Part shown: positions 1,560 to 16,613 of the stretch, piece after piece
How positions within the stretch are numbered: the first letter of the stretch is position 1
Layout: each line of letters opens with the position of its first letter
Source of the DNA: Halomarina oriensis
GTDB taxonomy: Archaea; Halobacteriota; Halobacteria; Halobacteriales; Haloarculaceae
Assembly: GCF_009791395.1 (NCBI RefSeq)
Contig: NZ_WSZK01000021.1
Span: 1-53,760 of the forward strand
Direction of reading: 5' to 3'
Length of the DNA: 53,760 bases
Made by a program: the position numbers and the translations under genes
The notes under the pieces: generated by a model
Database searches by the model: none
What the model was told of the DNA's origin: nothing
Seen by the model: only the letters and a program-made list of their open reading frames with translations

Positions 1560-2326
1560 TGCCACGTGTGCGGGCGCGAGGCTTAGTTGTATGTCACCGA
1601 CTACGTCTTCGCCCGTCGCCGCCACCCACGAGCGACGTGGTTCGCGGGAGAAGTCCGCTCTCCCGGATTCGCATCTGTGAGACGCACAAGCGTCTCATCG
1701 CTTCGTGGCGCTCTCTGCAACGGTCCGCGTCGACGACTGCTTCGCCGGGAGGTAGCTGTTCGACAGGCGCGACAGACTGGTTCTCGACGTTCGTTCTTCC
1801 AAACGGTCATTAAGCGAGAGTGGCGCTCGCTGCCGAACTCGCTTAATGGTCGGATTGGAAACCATTGGGACGACCTCGCTCGACGTTCGGTTCGGAGGGT
1901 ATCGCCGTTCGCTCTACCCGGTCGTGTCGGTGGCTCTCACCACTCGCTCCCGGTGGTCGCTCGTTGCTCGAATCGTGTCGAGGTCACTTCTCTGATCTCA
2001 CCGTGCTCGCTTCGCTCGCGGTTCGGTCACGAAGAAGTCCGCTCTCCCCGATTTGAATACGCCGAGACGTGCTCGCTCACGCTGCGCGCGTCTCGTCTCT
2101 TCAAACGGTCGAGACGACGTTTTCACCGCTCACCGGCTCGCTCGCTCCGCTCCCTCGCGCGTGGTTCGCGGGAAAAGTCCGCTCTCCCCGATTTGAATCC
2201 AGTCGCTCCCTCCGGAAGACGCGCTCCGCTTGTCTTCCGTGCTCCCTATCCAAATCGTGTCGCTGTAGACGTTCTCACTGCTCGCAGTTCGGTCGCGTCG
2301 CTCCCTCACGTTGCTCGCAGGAGAAG
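1560..2326 (-). repeat. Non-coding stretch with repeated tRNA-Tyr 3'-end fragments
   Basis: No convincing gene lies here. The region downstream of tRNA-Tyr holds three partial copies of the tRNA 3' end. Copies at 2178-2197 and 2038-2057 match 20 bases (TCCGCTCTCCCCGATTTGAA); a weaker one is at 1654-1672. Spacing between successive copies, counting the gene at 2327, is 149, 140 and about 384 bp. Each copy is preceded by a similar block rich in CGCTC and CTCGC that ends in TTCGCGGGAA-like sequence. A serially duplicated attachment site or decayed satellite insertions would explain this. Confidence 0.7.
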
Positions 2327-2400
2327 TCCGCTCTCCCCGATTTGAACGGGGGGCAAGTCGATCTACAGTCGACTGCTCTGCCAGACTGAGCTAAGAGCGG
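2327..2400 (-). tRNA. tRNA-Tyr (GTA)
   Basis: The minus strand gives 74 nt with acceptor stem CCGCTCT/AGAGCGG, including the C1-G72 pair expected of archaeal tRNA-Tyr, and discriminator A. The anticodon stem GTCGA/TCGAC holds loop CTGTAGA, anticodon GTA. There is no intron and no encoded CCA. An AT-rich box (AATTTAAT on the plus strand, 2426-2433) lies about 30 bp upstream of the 5' end and is a good TATA element. Confidence 0.95.
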
Positions 2401-2477
2401 CCTGTCTGGTGGCAGTAGGTGCCGGAATTTAATGCTTGTCTTTCGTGCCGATTCGGCTGACGCCCGTATGACACCTA

Positions 2478-2490
2478 GTAAGATATATAT
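2478..2490 (+). promoter_or_regulatory. cdrL promoter TATA box
   Basis: GTAAGATATATAT lies about 30 bp ahead of the cdrL ATG at 2518, the spacing expected for a haloarchaeal TATA box with a nearly leaderless transcript. Its first six bases, GTAAGA, match most of the GTAAGAC motif repeated ahead of cdrS. Confidence 0.6.
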
Positions 2491-2517: not shown

Positions 2518-3057
2518 ATGAGCAAGATCACGTTCCGTGCGGACGACGACCTCGTCGCTCGTATCGAGGCGTACGACGCCTCGAAGAGCGAGGTGATGCG
2601 CGAGGCGCTTCGCGCGTACCTCGACGAGGGGTCGTCTCCGTCGGACGCCGCGGCACCCGCGCCGATGGGCCAGACGCTCGACGCTCTCGTGCGCGAGCGC
2701 GTGGACACGCTCGTCGACCAGCGAATCGAAGCCGTGCTCGCCGAGCAGCGACGCACCGACCGCGAGCGCGCCCCCCAAGACGTCAACGTCACGGTCAACC
2801 TCGCCGACGAGCGACAGGCGAGCGAGGCTATCCAGGAGGCCGAAGCGTCGGCTCTCTCGGCGACCGAACGGCGGGAGTCGGACTGCTCGGGCTGTGGCGA
2901 GACGCTCGACGACGATGCGGTCTACTGTCCGAACTGTGGCGAGAAGGCGAACCACCGTGTCTTCTGTGACTGCGGCGACGAACTCCGCTCGGACTGGTCG
3001 TTCTGTCCCGGCTGTGGCCGTCGGACACCTGCGGCAGACGTCCTGGAACGCTCGTAA
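2518..3057 (+). CDS. cdrL: Ribbon-helix-helix / double zinc-ribbon regulator CdrL
   Basis: 179 residues. The first ~40 ([20 protein letters not shown]...) form a CopG/MetJ-type ribbon-helix-helix DNA-binding domain. A charged helical linker spans about 50-115. Two C-terminal zinc ribbons use C123/C126/C137/C140 and C150/C152/C163/C166. The location directly upstream of the short RHH gene and ftsZ2 matches the haloarchaeal cdrL (cell division regulator, long), described with CdrS as a regulator of division genes. The ATG at 2518 sits just after a TATA box. The role of the zinc ribbons is not shown by sequence; protein contacts are possible. Confidence 0.85.
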
Positions 3058-3108: not shown

Positions 3109-3271
3109 GTCTTACGCTCGGCCAAAGTTTTATTACATATCGGGGTATGGAAACACCTGCGTAAGACAGTCGTCTTACACGGGGCGCGACGGGGAGGATT
3201 CCCGTCTCGTACTGCGGTTTCGACCCGTGTCCGACGCCTGGGTCGTCGTGACACACGGCTCGGTGTCTTAC
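3109..3271 (+). promoter_or_regulatory. cdrS-ftsZ2 promoter with repeated GTCTTAC/GTAAGAC motifs
   Basis: The cdrL-cdrS gap contains GTCTTAC at 3109-3115, the inverted pair GTAAGAC-AGTC-GTCTTAC at 3161-3178, and another GTCTTAC at 3265-3271. An AT-rich TATA-like stretch (TTTTATTACATA) lies at about 3128-3139, between the first site and the inverted pair. Short inverted repeats of this kind are typical RHH operators, so CdrS or CdrL binding is a reasonable inference. The motif also occurs singly at 45673 and 53672, so it is the clustering that is notable. Confidence 0.55.
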
Positions 3272-3289
3272 CAAGGGGAATACGACAAA

Positions 3290-3463
3290 ATGGAGCGTGT
3301 GACACTACGGATACCGAAGCAGCAGATCGAGGAAGTTGAGCGCATGGTCGAGACCGGGGAGTACCCGAATCGCAGCGAGGCGATTCGTGCCGCGGTCCGC
3401 GACATGATCAACGAGGACAACTCCGAGCGCCGCGACAAGAAGCGGCCGTGGGCGAGGGCCTGA
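3290..3463 (+). CDS. cdrS: Ribbon-helix-helix cell-division regulator CdrS
   Basis: 57 residues, almost entirely one RHH domain: [20 protein letters not shown] forms the strand and first helix, and [15 protein letters not shown] the second helix with the conserved SEAIR turn. In haloarchaea CdrS is co-transcribed with ftsZ2 and controls it and other division genes. Here the TGA stop ends at 3463 and the ftsZ2 ATG begins at 3464, with no gap, so translation is probably coupled. Longer in-frame extensions upstream are not protein-like, so the ATG at 3290 is preferred. The motif cluster at 3109-3271 lies in its promoter. Confidence 0.92.
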
Positions 3464-4678
3464 ATGCAGGACATCGTCAACTCGGCGCTCGAAAACGCCG
3501 AGAAAGAACAACAGCAGCGCTCGGACGCGAGCGGGTCGGAGGCCGACGAGTTCGGCGACCCCCGCATCGTCATCGTCGGCTGTGGTGGCGCGGGCAACAA
3601 CACCGTCAACCGCCTGTACAACATCGGCGTCGACGGCGCTGACACCATCGCCATCAACACCGACAAACAGCACCTGAAGATGATCGAGGCCGACACGAAG
3701 ATACTCGTCGGCAAGTCGCTCACGCAGGGGCTGGGTGCCGGTGGTGACCCGTCGATGGGCGAGCGCGCCACGGAGATGGCCCAGGGCACCGTCAAGGACG
3801 TCCTCGGCGAGGCGGACCTCGTGTTCGTCACCGCCGGCATGGGTGGTGGCACCGGAACCGGTGCGGCCCCCGTGGTCGCCAACATCGCCAAAGAGCAGGG
3901 CGCGATCGTCGTCGGGATGGTCTCGACGCCGTTCAACGTCGAGCGTGCCCGCACGGTGAAAGCCGAGGAAGGGCTGGAGAAACTCCGCAACGCCGCGGAC
4001 TCCATCATCGTCCTCGACAACAACCGGCTGCTCGACTACGTCCCGAACCTGCCCATCGGCAAGGCGTTCTCGGTCATGGACCAGATCATCGCCGAGACCG
4101 TCAAGGGCATCTCGGAGACCATCACCCAGCCGAGCCTCATCAACCTCGACTACGCCGACATGACGGCCATCATGGGCCAGGGCGGCGTCGCCGTCATGCT
4201 CGTCGGCGAGACACAGGACAAGAACAAGACCCAGGAAGTGGTCAAGGACGCGATGAACCACCCGCTGCTGGACGTGGATTACCGCGGCGCGACGGGTGGC
4301 CTCGTCCACATCACCGGCGGTCCCGACCTCACGCTGAAAGAGGCCGAGGGCATCGCCCAGAACATCACCGAACGGCTCGAAGCCAACGCGAACGTCATCT
4401 GGGGCGCTCGCATCCAGGAGGAGTACAAGGGCAAGGTGCGCGTCATGGCCATCATGACGGGCGTCCAGTCCGCACAGATCCTCGGGCCGACGACCCAGAA
4501 GCAGGCCAACGCCTCCCGCGAGGCCATCGACAGCGCCGGCGGGACGGGGTCGACGTCCCAGAGCCACCAGTTCGAGTCGAACTCGGGCAACAGTGGCGGC
4601 AACGGCGTCAACTTCGGTGAGACCGACGGCGGTCGCAGCGAAGTCGAACAGAACAACGGCCTCGACGTCATCCGGTAA
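3464..4678 (+). CDS. ftsZ2: Cell division protein FtsZ2
   Basis: 404 residues. It contains the tubulin signature GGGTGTG at 127-133, the nucleotide-binding GGAGNN at 41-46 and the T7 loop NLDYAD (227-232) that completes GTP hydrolysis in the next subunit. The N-terminal MQDIV and its fusion to the RHH gene match haloarchaeal FtsZ2, which acts in midcell constriction alongside FtsZ1 (not in this window). A Ser/Asn/Gly-rich tail follows residue ~350 and ends in a short conserved-looking peptide (NNGLDVIR) that may bind partners such as SepF. Length is normal for the family. Confidence 0.96.
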
Positions 4679-15318: not shown

Positions 15319-15933
15319 ATGGGTATGGACACAGTGCTCGAGACCGGGACGACGACGGTGGCGTTGACGGCCACCGACGGCGTCGTCCTGGCGGCCGACC
15401 GTCGGGCCTCACTCGGCGGACAGTTCGTCGCCAGCAAGCACGCCATCAAGGTAGAACCGGTCCACGACCGGGCCGCCGTCACCATCTCCGGGTCGGTGGG
15501 CGGCGGCCAGGAGTTCGTCCAGCGACTCCGGGCGGAGGCCGACCTCTACGAGACGCGCCGCGGCCACGAGATGAGTGTGGACGCGCTCGTCAAGACCGCC
15601 GCGAACACGGTTCGCGGGATGCCGGCGACACCCCTCCTCGGGGGTGTGGAGGCGGACGGCACCCCCCGCGTGTTCTTCCTCGACGGTGGGGGCGGCGTGC
15701 TCGAAGACGACTACACGGCCAGCGGGAGCGGGATGTCCCTCGCTATCGGGACGCTCGAACGCCTCTACGACCCCGAGATGGGCGTCGAGGCGGCTGTCGA
15801 CGTCGCGTCGGCGGCTATCGACGCCGCCAGCGAGCGCGACACGGCGTCCGGAAACGGTATCACTGTGACGCGCATCACCGCCGATGGCGTGCAACAGGAT
15901 ACGTACGACGACACGACGGAGGTCCTCGCATGA
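15319..15933 (+). CDS. psmB: 20S proteasome beta-type subunit (divergent, short propeptide)
   Basis: 204 residues from the ATG at 15319. Processing before T11 would expose the catalytic Thr in GTTTVALTATDGVVLAADRR. Asp17 is present in the mature numbering, and the Lys normally at 33 falls at 34 because of one extra residue; SGSG and SGNGI motifs are also present. The propeptide is only ten residues, far shorter than the ~49 I recall for Haloferax PsmB. It overlaps psmA by four bases (ATGA). It probably assembles with that alpha subunit as a specialised particle. Confidence 0.88.
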   Translation: MGMDTVLETGTTTVALTATDGVVLAADRRASLGGQFVASKHAIKVEPVHDRAAVTISGSVGGGQEFVQRLRAEADLYETRRGHEMSVDALVKTAANTVRGMPATPLLGGVEADGTPRVFFLDGGGGVLEDDYTASGSGMSLAIGTLERLYDPEMGVEAAVDVASAAIDAASERDTASGNGITVTRITADGVQQDTYDDTTEVLA

Positions 15934-16613
15934 TGGGTAACAACGACCGGCAGGCGTACGACCGCAACTCGAACATCTTCTCGCCCGACGGGCGACTCTA
16001 CCAGGTCGAGTACGCCCGCGAGGCGGTGAAACAGGGCTCCGCGAGCGTCGGCATCCGTACCCCGGACGGCGTGGTCCTCGCGGCCGCCCGTCGCGTGCGC
16101 TCGCCACTGCTCGAAGAGCGCAGCGTCGAGAAACTCCACAAGGTCGACGAGTTCCACGGCGTCGCCAGCGCGGGCCACGTCGCCGACGCCCGCCAACTGG
16201 TGGACGTCTCGCGCCGTGCCGCACAGGTCGAGCGCCTGCGCTACGGCGAGTTCATCACGACCGAGCAGTTGACGACCGAGATCAGCGAGCACATCCAGGA
16301 GTACACGCAGTCCGGCGGCACCCGGCCGTACGGCGCGGCGCTCCTCATCGCCGGGTTCGCCGAGGGCGACCCCCGCCTGTTCGAGACCGACCCCTCGGGG
16401 ACGGCCATCGAGTGGCAGGCCACCGCTATCGGCGGCGGGAGCGACCAGATCCGCGAGGAACTCGAAGAGCAGTACGACCCCCAGATGGGTGTCGAAGACG
16501 CCGTCGCCCTCGCCCGCGACGTGCTGACCGACGAGGACGACGAGGAGGGTGCCGAACCAACCATCGCCGTCATCACCGCGGACGGCTACGAGTCGCGCGA
16601 CGTCGCGGAGTAG
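15930..16613 (+). CDS. psmA: 20S proteasome alpha-type subunit
   Basis: 227 residues. The N-terminal helix signature AYDRNSNIFSPDGRLYQVEYAREAVK typifies alpha subunits that form the gate. ASAGHVADARQLVD and the GGTRPYG segment are conserved. There is no catalytic Thr. It starts inside the stop of the beta gene, so the pair is co-translated, whereas haloarchaeal alpha and beta genes are often unlinked. The C-terminus is acidic. The second residue is also Met, so the start could be 15933. Confidence 0.93.
   Translation: MMGNNDRQAYDRNSNIFSPDGRLYQVEYAREAVKQGSASVGIRTPDGVVLAAARRVRSPLLEERSVEKLHKVDEFHGVASAGHVADARQLVDVSRRAAQVERLRYGEFITTEQLTTEISEHIQEYTQSGGTRPYGAALLIAGFAEGDPRLFETDPSGTAIEWQATAIGGGSDQIREELEEQYDPQMGVEDAVALARDVLTDEDDEEGAEPTIAVITADGYESRDVAE

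Follow-up and report, generated by a model that had tools for sequence, protein, structure and literature searches.

A conserved array of GTCTTAC boxes at the haloarchaeal cdrS-ftsZ2 promoter as a probable operator for RHH regulators

Introduction

The regulators CdrS and CdrL, and the presence of CdrL at the cdrS-ftsZ2 promoter, are already known. In Halobacterium salinarum, ChIP-seq of CdrL gave reproducible binding only upstream of cdrS-ftsZ2, at less than base resolution (PMC7439475). In Haloferax volcanii, ChIP-seq of CdrS detected 18 sites, with ftsZ1, dacZ and psmB among the targets, and includes neither the cdrS promoter nor cdrL (PMC8406309). The CdrS motif in that organism is symmetric and lies upstream of the promoters. 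Other RHH proteins are known from different settings. Omega (ParB), the RHH repressor of pSM19035, places one dimer on each non-palindromic 7-bp box, holding single boxes weakly and adjacent ones tightly, and its boxes overlap promoters (PMC9499535). The archaeal RHH protein SegB of the Sulfolobales has palindromic boxes in the promoter of its own gene, and feedback has been suggested for it (PMC12284271).

Here we analysed a DNA stretch of 53,760 nucleotides (the window) from a Halomarina-like haloarchaeon, whose CdrS is 98% identical to that of Halomarina rubra. The locus corresponds to that of Halobacterium salinarum in its promoter and its gene order, and the single CdrL binding region there is what a pair present once per genome would predict. 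The main text of that study names no motif (PMC7439475), and we add the sequence of the boxes, their spacing, their conservation and the boxes in the cdrL promoter. As at the CdrS sites of Haloferax volcanii, a symmetric motif was recovered upstream of promoters, with doubled GTCNGAC boxes at the published distances. Unlike those sites, the operator proposed for cdrS has GTA/TAC outer halves and is absent from the published peaks. The array can be likened to that of Omega, since one dimer per non-palindromic 7-bp box is proposed here as well and boxes overlap the promoter, but Omega boxes are contiguous heptads (WATCACW), whereas gaps of 4 bp and of approximately 45-50 bp lie between the boxes here. 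SegB is similar as an archaeal RHH protein at its own promoter, but it functions in chromosome segregation, its sites number in the dozens, and its sequence (TCTAGASTCTAGA) is unrelated. In the open-access literature that we searched, we found no account of the sequence or the conservation of the operator, nor of the CdrS-type boxes at cdrL and those in the outgroups.

Results

The genes of the locus lie in the order tRNA-Tyr, cdrL, cdrS and ftsZ2 (Table 1), and orthologues of cdrL were found in most haloarchaea. A first-pass annotation of the window had described four GTCTTAC/GTAAGAC sites within 163 bp, namely an inverted pair and two single sites, and all four were confirmed (A, B, C and E in Table 1). 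A fifth, partial site (GTAAGAT) had been placed in the TATA region of cdrL. This site had to be dropped: it is not conserved as a box and belongs to the BRE/TATA element, at which relatives carry another type of sequence (Table 1). The position here called site D, which reads GTAAGAC in most relatives, would be a better fifth site. Upstream of the intact tRNA-Tyr gene, we also observed partial copies of its 3' end with flanks, plus one tRNA-Phe copy (1636-1675, 2020-2059, 2160-2199 and 824-844). These partial copies could be integration scars.

Table 1. Positions of genes, promoter elements and boxes in the window.
Feature	Positions	Strand	Remarks
tRNA-Tyr	2326-2400	-	
Predicted CdrS-type 7-4-7 site, cdrL promoter	2455-2472	+	GGCTGAC-gccc-GTATGAC, one mismatch per half; upstream of cdrL BRE/TATA
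cdrL BRE/TATA	2478-2490	+	Includes GTAAGAT (2478-2484); GGAAGATT-type sequence in relatives
cdrL	2518-3057	+	179 aa; RHH domain and double zinc ribbon; Pfam RHH_1, CdrL_M (PF24252), DZR
Site A, GTCTTAC	3109-3115	+	Directly 5' of cdrS BRE/TATA
cdrS-ftsZ2 BRE/TATA (gccaaagTTTTATTAC)	3121-3136	+	Position-specific conservation, -40 to -26 relative to B
GTGGTTA-like block	~3147-3153		-14 to -8 of B
Predicted transcription start	3159	+	Purine, 85% G / 14% A in relatives; ~27 nt past TATA centre
Predicted leader	3159-3289		
Site B, GTAAGAC	3161-3167	-	Left arm of inverted pair
Site C, GTCTTAC	3172-3178	+	Right arm of inverted pair; 11 bp (one helical turn) after B
Site D position	3229-3235	-	GTCCGAC in the window; GTAAGAC in 109/167 distinct relative sequences
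Site E, GTCTTAC	3265-3271	+	Ends 18 bp before cdrS start codon; directly 5' of GGGGAA
cdrS	3290-3463	+	57-aa RHH protein
ftsZ2	3464-4678	+	Tubulin/FtsZ domains

The 7-mer GTCTTAC is present in 66 copies in the 4.07 Mb genome. For any one site, the probability that three further sites lie within 157 bp is about 3e-9, and about 2e-7 over all 66 sites. The latter value, together with the single-copy pair found across genomes (below), rules out chance clustering of the four sites.

Conservation upstream of cdrS in relatives, on which the first-pass annotation had staked the motif, was borne out. The same array was present in 80 named haloarchaeal loci with nearly fixed spacing, and most of them have the additional GTAAGAC (D) approximately 56 bp after C. 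Among 167 distinct upstream sequences of relatives, B/C was exact in 164, with a spacer of 4 bp in 134, 5 bp in 21, 2 bp in seven and 3 bp in two, and E was exact in 156. In 79 distinct sequences site A precedes B by exactly 52 bp, and in 26 others it was found in reversed orientation at 62-65 bp.

Next we looked at the whole genomes. Of 195 Halobacteriales genomes, 170 contain just one copy of the exact B/C pair with 4-5 bp between its arms, including 147 of the 157 high-quality ones, compared to a single genome out of 195 for a control pair with the reversed pattern. Where the pair positions were compared with those of the CdrS gene, all of them were directly upstream of cdrS. The pair is also retained in the ten remaining high-quality genomes: eight, of which seven belong to one family, have a 2-3 bp spacer, and two have one or two mismatches. 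Outside the Halobacteriales the pair was at chance level (three genomes in about 240, where the control pair gave more matches), and in the two such genomes with a known cdrS position it was located away from cdrS. An arrangement of the D-E type is nearly always found at most once per genome, and at cdrS where positions were compared. The single ChIP location of CdrL fits a pair that is unique in each genome and sits at cdrS, as a CdrL-dependent operator would.

Counted from the first base of B, the TATA box lies at -32 to -26, the BRE at approximately -40 to -35 and site A at -52 to -46, so that the B/C pair begins about 26 bp past the TATA box. The conserved purine at -2 of B is likely the transcription start. 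With this predicted start B and C would cover approximately +3 to +20, which is a repressor position. Site A sits just before the BRE, in a region that is a frequent seat of archaeal activators (PMC8406309). The boxes are short and phased with the helix, as is the case for RHH operators, with 11 bp from B to C in most sequences and A at one of the two distances given above. Between the TATA box and the predicted start there is also a GTGGTTA-like block, which is kept in the cdrS promoters of relatives and is weaker in the window.

The CdrS site was derived from the orthologues of three ChIP-listed targets, ftsZ1, dacZ and psmB. Most of these promoters contain GTCNGAC, a 7-bp palindrome that is often doubled with a 4-bp spacer (7-4-7). 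When up to two mismatches were allowed, the 7-4-7 pair was detected in 14/14 ftsZ1 promoters (0.09 expected; 13/14 at one mismatch), in 11/13 dacZ promoters and in 6/7 Haloferax psmB promoters. No comparable signal was seen in the ftsZ1 promoters with other spacers (1-3 and 5-11 bp), and none of the tested ftsZ1, dacZ and psmB promoters contained GTCTTAC. The published motif positions are -50, -47 and -72 from the TSS (PMC8406309), as compared to our measured -58, -50 and -75 from the ATG; the two sets agree if the leaders are 3-8 nt long. The window itself encodes two adjacent proteasome-type subunits (15346-15891 and 16038-16589), which are below the archaeal beta-subunit family cut-off, and a better proteasome beta subunit is found elsewhere in the genome.

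The same box type was abundant upstream of cdrL, with 141 GTCNGAC in 107 cdrL promoters versus 5.1 expected. In 69 of 105 distinct cdrL promoters a 7-4-7 pair (at most two mismatches) was located upstream of the BRE/TATA, where shuffled sequences gave an expectation of 0.75. As cdrL is absent from the published CdrS peaks, the link from CdrS to cdrL is a prediction. At cdrS the 7-4-7 spacing recurs in the 134 of 164 exact pairs with a 4-bp spacer, and the letters are of the other type: of the window sites only D fits GTCNGAC, and A, B, C and E do not. Within 260 bp upstream of haloarchaeal cdrS genes there were nevertheless 76 GTCNGAC versus 12.9 expected, which from a reading of the sequences we attribute mainly to the 3' coding end of cdrL (CGTCGGACACC, encoding Arg-Arg-Thr).

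Some haloarchaea have no cdrL. Absence was judged with a profile of 31 CdrL sequences, with which generic matches score at most 24 bits and true CdrL proteins 95-241 bits. Approximately ten haloarchaeal genomes, among them two of the Actinarchaeum type, gave only generic zinc-ribbon or RHH scores; several are near-complete and four consist of a single contig. No remnant of cdrL was detectable at the locus in these genomes, and tRNA-Tyr still lies beside cdrS in most of them. Sites B, C and E are retained without cdrL and do not follow its distribution as boxes for CdrL alone would, which rules out CdrL as their sole cause. Something besides CdrL must thus use this core, either CdrS or another factor. 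In contrast, A was kept in 1/7 cdrL-less clusters versus 46/65 clusters with cdrL (P=0.006), and D in 2/7 versus 45/65 (P=0.045), both values being approximate as the clusters are a coarse correction for kinship. Most simply, this would mean that A and D depend on CdrL, and that B, C and E also serve another factor, most likely CdrS. In a small-genome lineage represented by three incomplete genomes (70-78% complete), in which cdrL was undetected, B and E were present and C was absent.

Additionally, we studied 20 genomes of the same phylum from outside the order, in which cdrS is followed by ftsZ. Their cdrS promoters contained 43 GTCNGAC versus 0.58 expected, as boxes of the GTCWGAC type, and neither GTCTTAC nor GTAAGAC was found in any of the 20. 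No convincing CdrL was found in the eight outgroup genomes checked, one of which had a single zinc-ribbon match of 43 bits. From the outgroup boxes we infer that direct autoregulation by CdrS is the ancestral state, and that haloarchaea changed the letters of the boxes at cdrS.

Discussion

We consider it probable, though well short of certain, that the array is an operator of cdrS-ftsZ2 for RHH dimers, with CdrL as the main ligand where present, and that it forms part of a reciprocal loop between CdrS and CdrL. One RHH dimer would bind each 7-bp box. B and C, lying one helical turn apart over the predicted start, could hold two cooperating dimers that block initiation or promoter escape. Site A, about five turns upstream of them, and sites D and E in the leader may provide extra binding or a second mode, either activation or bridging. 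In genomes with cdrL, CdrL would most likely be the main ligand, and CdrS would read the sister box GTCNGAC before cdrL, ftsZ1, dacZ and psmB. In such a loop CdrS would act on cdrL, and CdrL on cdrS-ftsZ2; it probably replaced an ancestral, direct autoregulation of CdrS via GTCWGAC boxes. The asymmetry of the box (GTC-T-TAC), a form that a homodimer need not prefer, counts against the proposed operator.

The first-pass annotation had read the array as an autoregulatory RHH operator. An operator of the RHH type is borne out by the conservation, spacing, uniqueness and position of the boxes at the predicted start, but autoregulation is doubtful in haloarchaea, given the different box derived for CdrS, the lack of a CdrS peak at cdrS in Haloferax volcanii and the ChIP-seq in Halobacterium salinarum, where CdrL was the protein located at this promoter. 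Direct autoregulation would mean that CdrS binds GTCTTAC as a weaker variant of GTCNGAC and represses its own operon, with CdrL as a modifier only, and we regard this as rather unlikely. CdrS is present in 157/157 high-quality genomes, including those that lack cdrL and retain B/C/E, but in the cdrL-less genomes that were read these boxes have not reverted to GTCNGAC. The 7-4-7 geometry and the inner GAC-N4-GTC halves are the same as at ftsZ1, yet the boxes at cdrS are consistently unlike GTCNGAC and the tested known targets of CdrS are devoid of GTCTTAC. Finally, CdrS-type boxes do occur at cdrS in the outgroups, but the cdrS promoter is missing from the 18 CdrS sites of Haloferax volcanii.

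We consider it improbable that the boxes are bound by an unlinked third factor common to all haloarchaea, with CdrL either joining via this factor or competing with it. Such a factor would account both for B/C/E in genomes without cdrL and for the missing CdrS peak. However, no candidate was found, in two of the cdrL-less genomes no further protein resembles CdrS at E<=0.001, and the geometry is the same as at the inferred RHH sites of ftsZ1.

Very improbable, in spite of a predicted window leader that folds better than dinucleotide shuffles (z -2.1), a C-D interval with a mean z of -2.3 over 102 loci (mononucleotide shuffles) and post-transcriptional control of the operon reported in Halobacterium (PMC8303175), is that the inverted repeats are RNA hairpins (B-C and D-E) in the approximately 130-nt leader that control translation or processing, because A lies upstream of the TATA box and outside the predicted transcript, E persists where D is lost, conservation falls on the letters of the boxes and not on pairing, and among 27 changed D/E pairs none had changed on both sides and only seven were still fully paired. 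With no covariation in the D/E arms, RNA pairing is unsupported as the main constraint, and the leader structure may have other causes. In some outgroups and haloarchaea (three loci), long inverted repeats were seen directly before the ribosome binding site.

Returning to the loop between CdrS and CdrL, its history can be sketched tentatively, at slightly less than an even chance. An ancient self-repression by CdrS would have been rewired into a two-gene loop with a one-letter box code, in which CdrS acts through GTCNGAC on cdrL, ftsZ1, dacZ and proteasome genes, and CdrL acts through GTCTTAC on cdrS-ftsZ2 only. The change may have accompanied the appearance of CdrL on the haloarchaeal stem lineage, and may have been partly undone where cdrL was lost.

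The timing of FtsZ-based division in archaea is an open question, and CdrS and CdrL have been known without their wiring. The exact bases to mutate are given by the probable single-copy operator, which is conserved across haloarchaea, by the second box type that would connect CdrS with cdrL and ftsZ1, and by the putative ancestral state in the outgroups. Species without cdrL would be natural experiments in which CdrL and CdrS can be told apart in their roles.
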